From the NCBI RefSeq assembly GCF_007827695.1, contig NZ_VITA01000013.1, positions 62,001 to 126,000 of the forward strand: a DNA stretch of 64,000 bases. The letters are read 5' to 3'. The stretch's first letter is position 1; each line of letters begins with the position of its first letter. Position numbers and translations under genes: made by a program. The notes beneath the pieces are model-generated. The model was not told the DNA's origin and did not search any database. It was given only the letters and a program-made list of their open reading frames with translations. The stretch comes from Sinorhizobium medicae. GTDB lineage: Bacteria > Pseudomonadota > Alphaproteobacteria > Rhizobiales > Rhizobiaceae. Shown here piece by piece: positions 10,582 through 27,469 of the stretch.

Positions 10582-10634
10582 GCATGATGCCGGACCGCCG
10601 TGACCGGTAGCGTTCTTTCAGTCCGGTATGTCCC
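10582..10634 (+). promoter_or_regulatory. Conserved flagellin leader element, flaA copy
   Basis: GCATGATGCC at 10582 is followed by a 5-bp hairpin (ACCGG at 10603-10607 pairing with CCGGT at 10623-10627), running into GGTATGTCCC. The hairpin ends 38 bases before the flaA ATG. The same order recurs before flaB, flaD and flaC. It could be a transcription-start region plus an mRNA hairpin, for example a FlbT target. Confidence 0.5.
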
Positions 10635-10665
10635 CCCAATCAGTATTTCGTAGGGACAAACGAGT

Positions 10666-11853
10666 ATGACCAGCATTCTCACCAACAATTCCGCAATGGC
10701 TGCGCTTTCGACGCTGCGCTCGATCTCTTCCAGCATGGAAGACACCCAGAGCCGCATCTCGTCGGGCCTCCGCGTCGGTTCGGCCTCCGACAACGCCGCC
10801 TACTGGTCGATCGCGACCACCATGCGTTCCGACAATCAGGCGCTCTCCGCCGTTCAGGACGCCCTTGGCCTCGGCGCCGCCAAGGTTGATACCGCCTATT
10901 CCGGTATGGAATCGGCCATCGAAGTCGTTAAGGAAATCAAGGCCAAGCTCGTCGCCGCCACCGAAGACGGTGTCGACAAGGCGAAGATCCAGGAAGAAAT
11001 CACCCAGCTGAAAGACCAGCTCACGAGCATTGCCGAGGCGGCTTCGTTCTCCGGCGAAAACTGGCTTCAGGCGGACCTCAGCGGCGGCGCCGTCACCAAG
11101 AGCGTCGTGGGGTCGTTCGTCCGTGACGCAAGCGGTTCCGTATCTGTCAAGAAGGTCGACTACAGCCTCAACGCCAACTCGGTTCTCTTCGATACTGTCG
11201 GCGACACCGGCATCCTGGACAAGGTCTACGACGTCTCGCAGGCAAGCGTTACGCTGACGGTCAACACCAACGGCGTCGAATCGCAGCATACTGTTGCTGC
11301 CTATTCGCTGGAGTCTCTCACCGAAGCCGGTGCGGAGTTCCAGGGCAACTACGCTCTTCAGGGCGGTAACAGCTACGTCAAGGTCGAGAACGTCTGGGTT
11401 CGCGCCGAGACCGCTACAGCCGGTGCCACCGGTCAGGAAATCGCCGCCACCACAACGGCAGCCGGTACCATCACTGCCGACAGCTGGGTCGTCGACGTTG
11501 ACAACGCACCTGCCGTCAGCGTTTCGGCCGGTCAGTCCGTTGCCGGGATCAACATCGTCGGAATGGGGGCAGCCGCCCTCGATGCGCTGATCAGCGGTGT
11601 CGACGCTGCACTGACCGACATGACCAGCGCTGCCGCCTCGCTCGGCTCCATCTCCTCGCGCATCGACCTGCAGAGCGAATTCGTCAACAAGCTCTCGGAC
11701 TCGATCGACTCGGGCGTTGGCCGTCTCGTCGATGCGGACATGAACGAGGAATCGACCCGCCTCAAGGCTCTGCAGACCCAGCAGCAGCTCGCCATTCAGG
11801 CCCTGTCGATCGCCAACTCGGACTCGCAGAACGTCCTGTCGCTCTTCCGCTAA
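10666..11853 (+). CDS. flaA: Flagellin A
   Basis: FlaA is the principal filament subunit of the rhizobial complex flagellum. The 395-residue protein has the conserved flagellin N-terminal D0/D1 segment (MTSILTNNSAMAALSTLRSI, then ISSGLRVGSASDNAAYWSIA) and the C-terminal segment (ALQTQQQLAIQALSIANSDS, ending SLFR). These flank a variable middle (about residues 140-300). It is almost identical to FlaB through much of the middle, including at DNA level. It is a stand-alone transcription unit with its own leader and a terminator at 11905. Flagellin genes of this type are activated by Rem (established for S. meliloti). Confidence 0.96.
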   Translation: MTSILTNNSAMAALSTLRSISSSMEDTQSRISSGLRVGSASDNAAYWSIATTMRSDNQALSAVQDALGLGAAKVDTAYSGMESAIEVVKEIKAKLVAATEDGVDKAKIQEEITQLKDQLTSIAEAASFSGENWLQADLSGGAVTKSVVGSFVRDASGSVSVKKVDYSLNANSVLFDTVGDTGILDKVYDVSQASVTLTVNTNGVESQHTVAAYSLESLTEAGAEFQGNYALQGGNSYVKVENVWVRAETATAGATGQEIAATTTAAGTITADSWVVDVDNAPAVSVSAGQSVAGINIVGMGAAALDALISGVDAALTDMTSAAASLGSISSRIDLQSEFVNKLSDSIDSGVGRLVDADMNEESTRLKALQTQQQLAIQALSIANSDSQNVLSLFR

Positions 11854-11904
11854 GAAGACATGCAATAGCGGGATGCAGGCGATTGCCTGCCTTCCGATAC
11901 TTCG

Positions 11905-11940
11905 AACCGCGCCCCGGAAACCGGGCGCGGTTTTTGTTTC
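11905..11940 (+). terminator. Intrinsic terminator after flaA
   Basis: A GC-rich hairpin (CCGCGCCC pairing with GGGCGCGG, with further pairing inside) is followed by TTTTTGTTT. It lies about 50 bases past the flaA stop. The rest of the 337-base gap to flaB holds the CtrA-like box and the leader element. Confidence 0.85.
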
Positions 11941-12036
11941 TTCCATCAGAGACCGGCGCTTCACTTTTTTTTAAACATGATGTGGCACGCGCGCACGCGC
12001 AAAGGTTGAGAAAATTGCGGAATAGCTCTCAGCTAC

Positions 12037-12053
12037 TTAGTGCTTCATTAACC
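12037..12053 (+). promoter_or_regulatory. CtrA-like box upstream of flaB
   Basis: TTAG-N7-TTAACC has one mismatch to the CtrA consensus. It lies 64 bases before the GCATGA of the flaB leader, nearly the same spacing as in the flaD and flaC regions. The assignment is an inference. Confidence 0.35.
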
Positions 12054-12117
12054 AAACCCGGATTATCTAGATCCATCGAAAGAACGGGCTAGCCCATAGA
12101 TATCAGCTGGTTAGCAA

Positions 12118-12160
12118 GCATGACGTTGACCGTCTTTCGCCGGTGGAACCGGAATGTCCC
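12118..12160 (+). promoter_or_regulatory. Conserved flagellin leader element, flaB copy
   Basis: GCATGA at 12118 precedes a tight hairpin (CCGGT at 12140-12144, a 3-base loop, ACCGG at 12148-12152) that runs into GGAATGTCCC. The hairpin ends 38 bases before the flaB ATG, exactly as for flaA. Confidence 0.5.
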
Positions 12161-12190
12161 TTCTCATCAGCCATCAAGGGGCACTAAACC

Positions 12191-13378
12191 ATGACGAGCA
12201 TTCTCACCAACATTGCGGCTATGGCCGCTCTCCAGACTCTGCGCACGATCGGCTCCAACATGGAAGAGACGCAGGCGCATGTCTCCTCCGGTCTGCGCGT
12301 CGGCCAAGCCGCCGACAACGCCGCCTATTGGTCGATCGCAACGACCATGCGCTCCGACAATATGGCGCTTTCCGCCGTTCAGGACGCCCTCGGCCTCGGC
12401 GCCGCCAAGGTTGATACTGCCTATTCCGGTATGGAATCGGCCATCGAAGTCGTTAAGGAAATCAAGAAGAAACTCGTTGCCGCTACTGAAGACGGTGTTG
12501 ACAAGGCCAAGATTCAGGAAGAAATCGATCAGCTCAAGGATCAGCTCACGAGCATTTCCGAGGCGGCGTCGTTCTCCGGTGAAAACTGGCTTCAGGCGGA
12601 CCTCAGCGGCGGCGCAGTCATCAAGAGCGTCGTCGGATCGTTCGTCCGGGATGCGAGCGGTGCCGTGTCGGTCAAGAAGGTCGACTACAGCCTCAACACC
12701 AACTCGGTTCTCTTCGATACTGTCGGCGACACCGGCATCCTGGACAAGGTCTACGACGTCTCGCAGGCAAGCGTTACGCTGACGATCAACACCAACGGTG
12801 TCGCGTCGCAGCATACGGTCGCTGCCTATTCGCTGGAGTCTCTCACCGAAGCTGGTGCGGAGTTCCAGGGCAACTACGCCCTCCAGGGCGGTAACAGCTA
12901 CGTCAAGGTCGAGAACGTCTGGGTTCGCGCCGAGACCGCTGCAGCCGGCGCCACCGGCCAGGAGCTTGCCGCCACCACAACGGCAGCCGGCACCATTACC
13001 GCGGACAGCTGGGTCGTCGACGTTGACAACGCACCTGCCGTCAGCGTTTCGGCCGGTCAGTCCGTTGCCGGGATCAACATCGTCGGAATGGGTGCAGCCG
13101 CACTCGATGCGCTGATCAGCGGTGTCGATGCTGCTCTGACCGACATGACGAGCGCAGCAGCCGACCTCGGCTCGATCGCCATGCGCATCGACCTGCAGAG
13201 CGACTTCGTCAACAAGCTCTCGGACTCGATCGACTCGGGCGTTGGCCGTCTCGTCGATGCGGACATGAACGAGGAATCGACCCGCCTGAAGGCTCTTCAG
13301 ACCCAGCAGCAGCTTGCTATCCAGTCGCTGTCGATCGCGAACTCGGCCTCGGAAAGCGTCCTCACGCTCTTCCGCTAA
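12191..13378 (+). CDS. flaB: Flagellin B
   Basis: FlaB is a 395-residue flagellin, the same length as FlaA and collinear with it throughout. N-terminal MTSILTNIAAMAALQTLRTI and C-terminal ALQTQQQLAIQSLSIANSAS are typical of the family. From about residue 60 to 310 it differs from FlaA at only scattered positions, and long DNA stretches are identical, so the two are a recent duplication or are kept alike by gene conversion. It forms a secondary subunit of the rhizobial filament. It has its own leader and tandem downstream hairpins. Confidence 0.95.
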   Translation: MTSILTNIAAMAALQTLRTIGSNMEETQAHVSSGLRVGQAADNAAYWSIATTMRSDNMALSAVQDALGLGAAKVDTAYSGMESAIEVVKEIKKKLVAATEDGVDKAKIQEEIDQLKDQLTSISEAASFSGENWLQADLSGGAVIKSVVGSFVRDASGAVSVKKVDYSLNTNSVLFDTVGDTGILDKVYDVSQASVTLTINTNGVASQHTVAAYSLESLTEAGAEFQGNYALQGGNSYVKVENVWVRAETAAAGATGQELAATTTAAGTITADSWVVDVDNAPAVSVSAGQSVAGINIVGMGAAALDALISGVDAALTDMTSAAADLGSIAMRIDLQSDFVNKLSDSIDSGVGRLVDADMNEESTRLKALQTQQQLAIQSLSIANSASESVLTLFR

Positions 13379-13391
13379 TCAGACGCGGAAA

Positions 13392-13416
13392 GGCGGTCGC
13401 GAACTGAACGACCGCC
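13392..13416 (+). terminator. First hairpin after flaB
   Basis: An 8-bp stem (GGCGGTCG pairing with CGACCGCC) with a 9-base loop lies 14 bases past the flaB stop and has no T tract. It may protect the mRNA 3' end rather than terminate transcription. Confidence 0.5.
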
Positions 13417-13433
13417 ATCCTGACCGACCTTAA

Positions 13434-13473
13434 CAAGGGCCACGCTCATCGAGCGTGGCCCTTGTTGTTGTTG
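13434..13473 (+). terminator. Second hairpin and terminator after flaB
   Basis: A perfect 14-bp stem (CAAGGGCCACGCTC pairing with GAGCGTGGCCCTTG) with a 3-base loop is followed by a T-rich TTGTTGTTG tract. It is a strong intrinsic terminator isolating flaB from flaD. Confidence 0.82.
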
Positions 13474-13487
13474 TCGGCAAATAGCCG

Positions 13488-13504
13488 TTTAATCTTTGTT
13501 AACC
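13488..13504 (+). promoter_or_regulatory. CtrA-like box upstream of flaD
   Basis: TTTA-N7-TTAACC has one mismatch to the CtrA consensus and lies 62 bases before the GCATGA of the leader. Two more TTAAC half-sites follow near 13541 and 13561. The assignment is an inference. Confidence 0.35.
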
Positions 13505-13566
13505 ATAGCCGCGCTAATTGGACTCAACGCAACGAACGGTTAACCAAGACGAAGAAGCGGTTAACG

Positions 13567-13611
13567 GCATGAGGCCTCGCGTTCGCTTCCCCGTGACAGA
13601 CGGGATGTCCC
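13567..13611 (+). promoter_or_regulatory. Conserved flagellin leader element, flaD copy
   Basis: GCATGA at 13567 precedes a hairpin (CCCGT at 13590-13594, 5-base loop, ACGGG at 13600-13604) that runs into GGGATGTCCC. The hairpin ends 37 bases before the flaD ATG. The stem bases differ from the other copies but remain complementary, which argues for a structural role. Confidence 0.5.
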
Positions 13612-13641
13612 TTTCCAACTAGCCATTCAAAGGGGCCCTTA

Positions 13642-14829
13642 ATGACCAGCATTCTCACCAATGTCGCAGCGATGGCTGCACTCCAGACCCTGCGCGGCAT
13701 CGACTCCAATATGGAGGAAACGCAGGCTCGGGTGTCCTCGGGCCTTCGCGTCGGAACAGCTTCGGACAACGCTGCCTACTGGTCGATCGCCACTACGATG
13801 CGTTCGGACAATATGGCGCTTTCCGCCGTTCAGGACGCGCTGGGCCTGGGCGCCGCAAAGGTCGACACAGCCTATGCCGGTGTGGAGAATGCGGTCGAGG
13901 TCGTGAAGGAAATTCGTGCCAAACTCGTCGCTGCGACCGAAGACGGTGTCGACAAGGCCAAGATTCAGGAAGAGATCGAACAGCTCAAGCAACAGCTGAC
14001 GAGCATTGCAACGGCCGCTTCCTTCAGCGGCGAAAACTGGCTCCAGGCTGACATCACCACGCCTGTTACGAAGAGCGTAGTGGGTTCCTTTGTCCGCGAC
14101 TCCTCAGGCGTCGTGTCCGTAAAGACGATCGACTATGTCCTCGACGGCAACTCAGTCCTCTTCGATACGGTGGGCAATACCGGCATTCTGGACAAGGTCT
14201 ATGACGTGTCAGAGTCCAGCGTCACGCTTTCGATCAACACGGGCGGCGTTGTTTCCGAGCATACGGTCGCAGCCTATACCGTTGACGACCTCATCGCCGG
14301 CGGCGCGGTATTCCAGAACAATTATGCGCTTGCGGGCGGCGTCAGCTATGTTCAGGTCGAAGGCGCTTGGGTCAGAGCAGTGGCTTCCTCTACGGTTCCC
14401 GGACAGGAGGTTGCTGCGGTGACGACGGCCGCAGCTCCCATCACCGCCGATTCCTGGATCGTAGACACGACTGCTGGGCCGGCAGCAAGTGTACCTGCAC
14501 CCGCATCGGTCGAGAATATCGACATCACCGACGCTACCCAGGCCGCAAACCTCGATGCCCTGATCAGGGGGGTCGACGAAGCGCTCGAGGATCTGATCAG
14601 CGCCACATCGGCTCTCGGATCGATCTCCATGCGCATCGGCATGCAGGAAGAGTTCGTATCGAAGCTCACCGACTCGATCGACTCGGGCATCGGCCGCCTC
14701 GTAGACGCCGACATGAACGAGGAATCGACCAGGCTCAAGGCGCTGCAGACGCAGCAGCAGCTCGCCATCCAGTCGCTGTCGATCGCCAACACCAATTCGG
14801 AAAACATCCTCCAGCTCTTCCGTCAGTAA
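13642..14829 (+). CDS. flaD: Flagellin D
   Basis: FlaD is a 395-residue flagellin with conserved ends (MTSILTNVAAMAALQTLRGI, and ALQTQQQLAIQSLSIANTNS ending LQLFRQ). The middle is clearly diverged from FlaA and FlaB (for example DYVLDGNSVLFDTVGNTGIL, VASSTVPGQEVAAVTTAAAP). It is a secondary filament subunit in rhizobia. It has its own upstream box, leader hairpin and terminator. The order flaA-flaB-flaD-flaC matches S. meliloti. Confidence 0.93.
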   Translation: MTSILTNVAAMAALQTLRGIDSNMEETQARVSSGLRVGTASDNAAYWSIATTMRSDNMALSAVQDALGLGAAKVDTAYAGVENAVEVVKEIRAKLVAATEDGVDKAKIQEEIEQLKQQLTSIATAASFSGENWLQADITTPVTKSVVGSFVRDSSGVVSVKTIDYVLDGNSVLFDTVGNTGILDKVYDVSESSVTLSINTGGVVSEHTVAAYTVDDLIAGGAVFQNNYALAGGVSYVQVEGAWVRAVASSTVPGQEVAAVTTAAAPITADSWIVDTTAGPAASVPAPASVENIDITDATQAANLDALIRGVDEALEDLISATSALGSISMRIGMQEEFVSKLTDSIDSGIGRLVDADMNEESTRLKALQTQQQLAIQSLSIANTNSENILQLFRQ

Positions 14830-14878
14830 GCGGCGCCCCGGCTAGGGGGCGACTTCGTCCCGCCCTGAAGGAGAAAAC

Positions 14879-14908
14879 TCCGCGGTCTCGCAAGGGGCCG
14901 CGGATTTT
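14879..14908 (+). terminator. Probable terminator after flaD
   Basis: A 7-bp stem (TCCGCGG pairing with CCGCGGA) with a 12-base loop is followed by TTTTCG, about 50 bases past the flaD stop. The rest of the 300-base gap contains the flaC box and leader. Confidence 0.65.
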
Positions 14909-14984
14909 CGTGCTGGCGCGGGGCTTGCGCCGGACTTGCCGAATTAACGAATTCTTCACCTCCGTTACCGATCCGTTTACGCCG

Positions 14985-15001
14985 TTAACCTTTTCTTAAC
15001 C
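14985..15001 (+). promoter_or_regulatory. CtrA-like box upstream of flaC
   Basis: TTAA-N7-TTAACC is a perfect match to the CtrA consensus TTAA-N7-TTAAC. It lies 61 bases before the GCATGA of the flaC leader, with another TTAA at 15009. This is the best of the flagellin copies. CtrA control is an inference. Confidence 0.45.
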
Positions 15002-15062
15002 ATCTTTGTTAAAGGTCCAGTAAGAACGGCGGCTGTCACCCAGGGCAAAAAGGTGTCAGCGT

Positions 15063-15100
15063 GCATGATGCCCCACCGTCGTTGCCGGCATTCCGGAATG
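15063..15100 (+). promoter_or_regulatory. Conserved flagellin leader element, flaC copy
   Basis: GCATGATGCC at 15063 precedes a hairpin (CCGG at 15085-15088, 4-base loop, CCGG at 15093-15096) that runs into GGAATGG. The hairpin ends 33 bases before the flaC ATG. The following TCCC block is displaced relative to the other three copies. Confidence 0.42.
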
Positions 15101-15129: not shown

Positions 15130-16095
15130 ATGACCAGCATCATGACCAACCCCGCCGCCATGGCGGCGTTGCAGACGTTGCGCGCGATCAATCACAATCT
15201 GGAGACCACGCAGGGCCGCATCTCGTCCGGTTATCGGGTGGAGACGGCGGCCGACAACGCCGCCTACTGGTCGATCGCAACGACGATGCGATCGGACAAT
15301 GCCGCGCTGTCGACGGTCCACGACGCCTTGGGCCTCGGCGCTGCCAAAGTCGACACGTTCTACTCGGCCATGGATACGGTCATCGACGTGATGACGGAGA
15401 TCAAGGCGAAGCTCGTCGCGGCAAGTGAGCCGGGCGTGGACAAGGACAAGATCAACAAGGAAGTTGCCGAACTCAAGAGCCAGCTGAAGTCGGCCGCGCA
15501 ATCTGCCTCCTTTTCCGGCGAAAACTGGCTTTATAACGGCGCCGCGGCAGCACTTGGCACCAAATCGATCGTTGCCTCCTTCAACCGTAGCGCCGACGGC
15601 AGCGTTGCGGTCTCGACGCTCAATTATGACACCGCCAAATCCGTCCTGATCGACGTTGCCGACCCCGCGCGCGGCATGCTCACCAAGGCCGTCGATGCGG
15701 ATGCCCTCCAGTCAACTCCGGCGGGCACGGCGCGCAATTATTATCTCATCGATGCCGGCGCCGCCCCGGCAGGCGCGACCGAGATAGAGATCGACAGCGC
15801 AACGACCGGTGCTCAGCTCGGCGACATGATCAGCGTCGTCGACGAGCTCATCAGCCAGCTGACCGACTCCGCCGCCACGCTGGGGGCGATCACCAGCCGC
15901 ATCGAAATGCAGGAAAGCTTCGTCGCCAATCTTATGGACGTGATCGACAAGGGCGTAGGCCGCCTCGTCGATGCCGACATGAACGAGGAATCGACGCGGC
16001 TGAAGGCTCTGCAGACGCAGCAGCAGCTCGGCATTCAATCGCTGTCGATCGCAAACACCACCTCGGAAAACATTCTCCGCCTGTTCCAGGAGTAA
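15130..16095 (+). CDS. flaC: Flagellin C
   Basis: FlaC is a shorter flagellin (321 residues) with the standard ends (MTSIMTNPAAMAALQTLRAI, and ALQTQQQLGIQSLSIANTTS ending RLFQE). Its variable middle is about 70 residues shorter than in FlaA, FlaB and FlaD and unrelated to them in detail (DADALQSTPAGTARNYYLID). It is the most diverged of the four, so it probably has a minor or positional role in the filament. It has its own leader and a downstream hairpin. Confidence 0.93.
   Translation: MTSIMTNPAAMAALQTLRAINHNLETTQGRISSGYRVETAADNAAYWSIATTMRSDNAALSTVHDALGLGAAKVDTFYSAMDTVIDVMTEIKAKLVAASEPGVDKDKINKEVAELKSQLKSAAQSASFSGENWLYNGAAAALGTKSIVASFNRSADGSVAVSTLNYDTAKSVLIDVADPARGMLTKAVDADALQSTPAGTARNYYLIDAGAAPAGATEIEIDSATTGAQLGDMISVVDELISQLTDSAATLGAITSRIEMQESFVANLMDVIDKGVGRLVDADMNEESTRLKALQTQQQLGIQSLSIANTTSENILRLFQE

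Positions 16096-26234: not shown

Positions 26235-27469
<1,235 letters not shown>

Follow-up and report, generated by a model that had tools for sequence, protein, structure and literature searches.

We analyzed a 64,000-nucleotide stretch of the Sinorhizobium medicae genome (RefSeq assembly GCF_007827695.1, contig NZ_VITA01000013.1, positions 62,001 to 126,000 of the forward strand; hereafter the window), in which each of four flagellin genes follows a leader made of a GCATGA box and a short potential hairpin, P1. In three of the four, a second potential hairpin, P2, would pair the Shine-Dalgarno bases with an upstream ATGTCCC. Our preferred reading, to which we assign a probability of about one half, is that this leader is a cis-regulatory mRNA element in which P2 shuts off the ribosome site, with the lateral-type FlbT protein encoded in the same cluster as its likely reader. 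The two-hairpin leader would then probably be a switch for holding back production of the main protein of the flagellum. If this is true, one type of flagellar system in the order would gain an RNA marker, and a likely point of flagellin control would be identified.

A two-hairpin leader precedes the flagellin genes

The elements of the four leaders and the genes that follow them (open reading frames, ORFs) are listed below, all on the + strand.

10582..10587, +, GCATGA box of the flagellin 1 leader (covariance-model match, sequence inspection)
10603..10627, +, P1 hairpin of flagellin 1, arms 10603-10607 and 10623-10627 (ACCGG/CCGGT)
10629..10658, +, P2 hairpin of flagellin 1, arms 10629-10634 and 10653-10658 (TGTCCC/GGGACA), the 3' arm being the Shine-Dalgarno region (folding)
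10666..11853, +, flagellin 1 (ORF; Pfam PF00669 and PF00700)
12118..12123, +, GCATGA box of the flagellin 2 leader (covariance-model match, sequence inspection)
12140..12152, +, P1 hairpin of flagellin 2, arms 12140-12144 and 12148-12152 (CCGGT/ACCGG) (folding)
12155..12183, +, P2 hairpin of flagellin 2, arms 12155-12162 and 12176-12183 (TGTCCCTT/AAGGGGCA), the 3' arm being the Shine-Dalgarno (folding)
12191..13378, +, flagellin 2 (ORF; Pfam)
13567..13572, +, GCATGA box of the flagellin 3 leader (covariance-model match, sequence inspection)
13590..13604, +, P1 hairpin of flagellin 3, arms 13590-13594 and 13600-13604 (CCCGT/ACGGG) (folding)
13607..13636, +, P2 hairpin of flagellin 3, arms 13607-13614 and 13629-13636 (GTCCCTTT/AAAGGGGC), the 3' arm being the Shine-Dalgarno (folding)
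13642..14829, +, flagellin 3 (ORF; Pfam)
15063..15068, +, GCATGA box of the flagellin 4 leader (covariance-model match, sequence inspection)
15085..15096, +, P1 hairpin of flagellin 4, arms 15085-15088 and 15093-15096 (CCGG/CCGG)
15130..16095, +, flagellin 4 (ORF; Pfam)

A first-pass annotation of this region had described a GCATGA followed by a small hairpin before all four genes, and every element lies where it was placed. The distances it gave from the end of P1 to the ATG (38, 38, 37 and 33 bases for flagellins 1 to 4) are exact, and its spacer between GCATGA and the first P1 arm is nearly so, measuring 15, 16, 17 and 16 bases, that is 15-17 and not 16-18. The P1 loop spans 3-15 bases in the window, the 5' arm of P1 starts 45-63 bases before the ATG, and in flagellins 1-3 only 1-2 bases separate P1 from P2. 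A GGnATGTCCC box had also been reported before three of the flagellins; it occurs three times in the 64 kb window, always ahead of a flagellin, against 0.60 expected (5 of 100 shuffles reach three). The pairing of ATGTCCC with the Shine-Dalgarno was absent from that annotation: in the folds of leaders 1-3 the ATGTCCC of the box forms the 5' arm of P2 and the Shine-Dalgarno its 3' arm, whose bases have an unpaired probability of 0.0-0.3.

What is unusual is the entire arrangement and not its simpler parts taken singly. GCATGA alone is not rare in the window (56 matches against 48.75 expected; 18 of 100 shuffles reach 56), and GCATGA-N14-19-CC occurs 27 times against 19.14 expected, a count reached by 5 of 100 shuffles. 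In the whole genome, the pattern GCATGANGC..CCGG has 28 matches, 25 of which overlap an ORF of at least 150 codons on either strand.

Support for P1 and P2 as structures

Relatives were collected at two levels. A scan of a species-genome collection returned 552 stretches coding for relatives, and the best 80 of the 552 were kept, representing 69 distinct loci. Together with our own sequence these loci hold 203 flagellin-like ORFs, the match reaching the N-terminus in 186, and these 186 gave 170 unique leaders for which 110 or more upstream bases were available. At the level of the order, a PF00669 search found flagellin-like genes in 68 of 111 genomes; the loci of this search and 59 fetched regions gave 60 unique leaders. 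Across the 230 leaders, CATGA or CATCA stands where expected in 177; of the remaining 53, several carry it slightly outside the range. An alignment of 116 of 118 non-redundant leaders (L106 and L151 were left out as off-target) gave the consensus GCATGAnGCC..CCGTCGTTnCCGG..CCGGAATGTCCC..loop..CAAGGGGCA..ATG.

One alternative is that only the primary sequence is conserved, as promoter and ribosome site, and that the CCGG/CCGG and TGTCCC/GGGACA pairings are incidental. In its favor, CCGG..CCGG forms P1 in 176 of the 203 anchored leaders, and the P2 arms of most leaders are a few fixed variants, so that only the divergent minority can provide evidence for structure. The first-pass annotation had taken the differing stems of the four genes (ACCGG/CCGGT, CCGGT/ACCGG, CCCGT/ACGGG and CCGG/CCGG) as a sign of selection on structure. 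They are indeed complementary, but the P1 of most relatives is CCGG, which is self-complementary and pairs for free. Compensated arms are nonetheless present in both stems. For P1 they include flagellin 3 of the window (CCCGT/ACGGG, where relatives such as L006 and L011 carry CCCGG/CCGGG at the same place), L017 (CCTCCT/GGGAGG), L018 (CCGACG/TGTCGG), L091 (CATGTCGG/CCGACATG) and L104 (GCCGA/TCGGC), and for P2 L031 (TGTTCCT/AGGAACA), L104 (TCTTTCT/GGAAAGA), L131 (ACTCA/TGAGT) and L163 (TGTTTCG/CGAAACA).

Several comparisons point to pairing beyond these examples. A two-hairpin energy below -12 kcal/mol was reached by 89 of 175 non-redundant leaders (both leader classes, the second being described below) against 4.1% of dinucleotide shuffles. 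The 5' region of a leader pairs with its own Shine-Dalgarno tail at -6 kcal/mol or lower in 72% of 136 non-redundant leaders. The corresponding shares are 10.6% for 1360 shuffled tails, 12.7% for 4216 pairings with class-B tails and 24.7% for 2312 pairings with the tails of 17 other window genes. In 500 shuffles blind to relatedness, eight of ten structure measures beat all shuffles and the remaining two beat all but 3 and 7. A stricter null scattered the observed substitutions over the flagellin tree, using an alignment that was fitted to the model and leans towards structure. Against it, the paired cells of the P1 core were matched in 0 of 1000 replicates and those of P2 gave p=0.002; the covariation score, taken over all pairs, gave p=0.018, and double changes in P1 with its outer pair gave p=0.013. 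Swapping P1 arms among the 14 leaders without CCGG gave p=0.0025, with two of the 14 (L009, L163) scored as misses where a segment border cuts the stem; the earlier proposal of selection on structure is thus supported for P1 by this test and by the tree-based null. For P2, arm swapping over 32 order-level leaders gave p=0.0014, in a set where several P1 calls are wrong (e.g., L093 1492, L110 1486 and L152).

Other results weigh against the pairing, above all for P2. A P2 stem of at least six pairs is present in 155 of 202 leaders, yet also in 61% of dinucleotide shuffles of the 18-base tail only, so this measure does not discriminate, and the 47 leaders without such a stem include flagellin 4, where the longest pairing seen after P1 is about 4 base pairs and no strong P2 was found. 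The P2 arm swap gave p=0.15 when restricted to the 19 divergent order-level leaders and p=0.39 over 46 divergent family and order leaders, with a tail window two bases short. Double changes did not exceed the tree null for P2 (p=0.39) and reached only p=0.056 for all pairs, and RNAalifold returned no structure for the 116-row alignment. The lack of excess P2 double changes and the RNAalifold result also favor incidental pairing. Since compensated variants occur in both stems, paired cells exceed the tree null and own tails pair better than others, we regard primary-sequence conservation alone as very improbable. That P1 and P2 are both real stems has moderate statistical support.

In several families (L095, L097, L102, L103, L145, L147 and L149) P1 can be extended outwards, for example as CATGCCGG/CCGGCATG, and then overlaps the P2 arm ATGTCCC, so that P1 and P2 would compete for the shared bases.

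Distribution of the leader

A covariance model of the window-type leader, R1, was built from relatives, with window leaders 2, 3 and 4 among its rows and leader 1 not. In the window, R1 matched the four flagellin leaders at 57.4, 55.1, 44.9 and 40.8 bits (55.1 for leader 1), the next best match having 12.1 bits. Matches were present in all 18 searched genomes of the genus and, at E<=0.001, in 18 of the 111 genomes of the order, spread over nine families and each with at least one match directly upstream of a PF00669 gene. Fifteen of these 18 had supplied model rows; G022, G028 and G107 had not. In a sample of 144 genomes of the class, two genomes besides our own had matches at E<=0.001, at 27 bits, and no flagellin start was found beside them.

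The genome of the window holds one further strong site (40.2 bits; L202:488-561), about 18 kb before the window, which puts it about 28 kb upstream of the leader of flagellin 1. This site has GCATGA and P1 without P2 and lies upstream of an icpA-like receptor ORF, after which come cheY-like and cheA-like ORFs (named by eye). Related sites are found upstream of an MCP-like ORF (L203) and of an icpA-like ORF (L204), and GCATGA and P1 without P2 also precede the icpA-like gene of G023. The presence of GCATGA-P1 without P2 before a che operon makes P2 look flagellin-specific. From these sequences, GCATGA-P1 would seem to be a class III 5' module in shared use, and P2 a flagellin-specific translation lock.

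The same sites suit a DNA-level explanation, in which GCATGA and P1 form a class III promoter core with an inverted repeat, P2 alone acts as RNA, and P1 says nothing about translation. The nearly fixed distance from GCATGA to P1 in the window (15-17 bases), while the P1 loop varies from 3 to 15, also agrees with it. However, the distance between the two CCGG also ranges from 3 to 15 bases across 176 leaders, which exceeds a helical turn and is ill-suited to half-sites of one operator, and arms that depart from CCGG tend to change together, as found in the arm-swap test. We consider this DNA element rather unlikely. Because the spacing of the P1 arms varies too widely to suit a two-site operator, and because a change in one arm goes with a change in the other, P1 is probably transcribed.

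A further alternative accepts P2 and dispenses with a protein: P2 would be an RNA thermometer, a brake on basal translation or a hairpin opened by a small RNA. P2 is short and moderately stable, and hairpins of this kind that pair the Shine-Dalgarno can melt or be invaded. Nevertheless, across families the ATGTCCC box and the junction between P1 and P2 keep their sequence to a degree that a melting hairpin would not need, and no Rfam family reached its gathering threshold in the window, small RNAs not having been searched for. A protein-free leader is in our view unlikely.

FlbT and FlaF as candidate partners

The cluster of the window encodes both proteins that the preferred reading, a leader read by FlbT, would involve.

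26269..26616, +, flaF (PF07309, E 8.3e-35)
26613..27062, +, flbT (PF07378, E 1.5e-42), a member of the leader-associated FlbT clade and the proposed trans-acting partner

FlbT (PF07378) is present in 72 of the 111 genomes of the order, including all 18 that carry the leader. An FlbT tree has two deep, cleanly separated clades (support 1.0 and 0.81), one with the 18 proteins from leader genomes and the other with 23 of 23 sampled others; these 23 were drawn from the 54 further FlbT genomes and from the second copy of G035. This last genome has both FlbT types: its leader-bearing flagellins share a region with one of them, and the other type belongs to a second cluster, in which R1 has no match. 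As judged from the sequences, the association of clade and leader supports recognition of the leader by FlbT, although joint inheritance alone would be expected to produce it; FlbT and the leader may go together only as parts of one flagellar system type, which counts against the preferred reading. No FlbT was found in the viral contigs searched.

Published work gives FlbT opposite signs. Caulobacter FlbT is reported to bind the flagellin 5' untranslated region and to repress (PMC3930126, PMC4347634), while accounts of Brucella and of the lateral system of Bradyrhizobium describe FlbT as needed for, or inducing, flagellin synthesis (PMC8781033, PMC9812332, PMC8429497; also PMC4347634), and a motility screen in Agrobacterium fabrum is reported to have picked up flbT and flaF (PMC9812332). 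The mode of action of FlbT on flagellin mRNA, and its opposite sign in Caulobacter and Brucella, are called unresolved in a review (PMC4347634).

The first-pass annotation had proposed its hairpin as the rhizobial FlbT target by analogy with Caulobacter. The presence of both FlaF and FlbT in the cluster, the occurrence of FlbT in every leader genome and the single clade agree with this, but the hairpin it singled out, P1, does not lie over the ribosome site and also occurs without P2 upstream of the che operon, and the sign of the analogy, repression, may be wrong given the activating role described above. We consider the lateral-type FlbT a likely regulator of the leader. In the mechanism that we propose, the GCATGA box would probably be part of a class III promoter or of the transcript 5' end, with P1 as a short hairpin about 16 bases past it. 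The Shine-Dalgarno would be paired with ATGTCCC in P2, so that the ribosome site would be closed by default. We infer that P1 and P2 form in vivo and that FlbT binds both: most likely the cluster-encoded lateral-type FlbT, with FlaF, reads the P1-P2 unit and times the opening of P2, which would couple flagellin translation to flagellum assembly and would make FlbT an activator in rhizobia. The reports from Brucella, Bradyrhizobium and Agrobacterium fit a leader that is closed by default and opened by lateral-type FlbT.

A second leader class in the order

We also examined 31 flagellin leaders from systems without an R1 match (19 fetched and 12 from the order set; one more region gave no start, and the starts of a few leaders, e.g., L287 and L298, look wrong). 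A strict scan found a hairpin with an AGRA loop upstream in 19 of the 31 (1.4% of shuffles), over the Shine-Dalgarno in 12 (1.8%), and at both places in tandem in 12 (0.06%), whereas the same scan of window-type leaders found it upstream in 1 of 118 and over the Shine-Dalgarno in 0 of 118. A loop-blind search gave a best short hairpin in 29 leaders, and in 19 of these its loop was AGRA. In 20 leaders selected because their stems have four or more pairs, several standard pair types occur at every one of the first five stem positions. The class, with its AGRA-loop hairpins and freely covarying stems, is represented by L107, L158, L161, L165, L167, L170, L171, L281, L282, L284, L288, L290, L291, L293, L296 and L297.

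A model of this class, R2, matched 26 of the 111 genomes of the order at E<=0.01, of which 12 had not been used in the model, and missed 2 of its 16 source genomes. None of the 26 is among the 18 genomes with R1, and 25 of them have FlbT. In the class sample, R2 matched 6 of 144 genomes, in three of the six before flagellin-like ORFs.

These observations led us to consider, tentatively and with more doubt than belief, that FlbT is an alphaproteobacterial counterpart of CsrA and that each of its two clades reads its own two-hairpin leader, with the second hairpin over the Shine-Dalgarno: paired AGRA loops for the subpolar type and CCGG/ATGTCCC for the lateral type. If so, the AGRA loops would be CsrA-like sites in genomes without CsrA, and two FlbT clades with their own leader codes would explain repression in one lineage and activation in the other. 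A search of the PDB by sequence returned nothing relevant to FlbT versus CsrA. When the profile of 23 subpolar-type FlbTs was compared with that of seven CsrAs (one row, L315, contains an internal stop that was left unchanged), the probability was 4% over 38 co-linear columns, and 1 of 100 column shuffles was as good; the lateral-type FlbT, the type of the window, gave no likeness to the CsrA profile. The likeness of the subpolar-type N-terminus to CsrA is therefore faint, though co-linear, and too weak to claim. Two leader classes that track two FlbT clades make the question of FlbT mechanism and sign directly testable.

Other features of the flagellin region

Directly upstream of the GCATGA of flagellin 3 lies an inverted repeat, GGTTAACC..GGTTAAC (13538-13565), which is also present in relatives of this gene and presumably resembles CtrA half-sites. 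CtrA motifs are named for flaA, flaC, flaD and mcpE in a published account (PMC3616915). A long hairpin downstream of flagellin 2 (13423-13478; CAAGGGCCACGCTC..GAGCGTGGCCCTTG) is probably a terminator and attracted chance Rfam matches; around the window flagellins, three unrelated Rfam matches were obtained at E<=1.

Comparison with known RNAs and regulators

In addition to the window, where no family reached its gathering threshold, 20 relative loci were compared with Rfam and gave no match. The flg-Rhizobiales RNA (RF01736) is described as a Rhizobiales RNA with several stem-loops (PMC2864571, PMC3765529), and it shares with the window leader both this host range and the several stem-loops. 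It differs in having 141 positions and in not standing before flagellins. We rejected it as a candidate: it had no match in the window, and its best match in the genome (17.6 bits against a gathering threshold of 55) was not at a flagellin. In 61 genomes of the order it gave five matches, four before flgF-like ORFs (L079-L082) and one before a fliL-like ORF (L083; by eye), and none before a flagellin.

Flagellin leaders read by CsrA resemble the window leader in that a small protein would read the flagellin mRNA leader; the analogy to FlaF/FlbT is drawn in a paper where CsrA is also reported to bind GGA motifs (PMC4894983). AGGA or AGRA in hairpin loops is lacking in window-type leaders and present in the other leader class of the order. 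CsrA itself was set aside as regulator, csrA having been found in none of the 111 order genomes, while 3 of 14 control genomes gave matches.

A further parallel is the leader read by FlbT in Caulobacter crescentus. Both are flagellin 5' regions proposed as read by FlbT, and FlaF and FlbT are both present in the window. The flbT gene belongs to the same genome and system as the leader, and for three of the four window genes a structured leader is predicted to cover the ribosome site, P2 being weak in the fourth, flagellin 4. The two differ in sign, FlbT repressing in Caulobacter and being reported as activating in related rhizobial-type systems. The FlbT clade of the window is also separate from the 'LREKDI' type, which we take to resemble Caulobacter FlbT. 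The window leader was found neither in Rfam nor in the open-access literature searched; it is conserved, and its general kind is already known.

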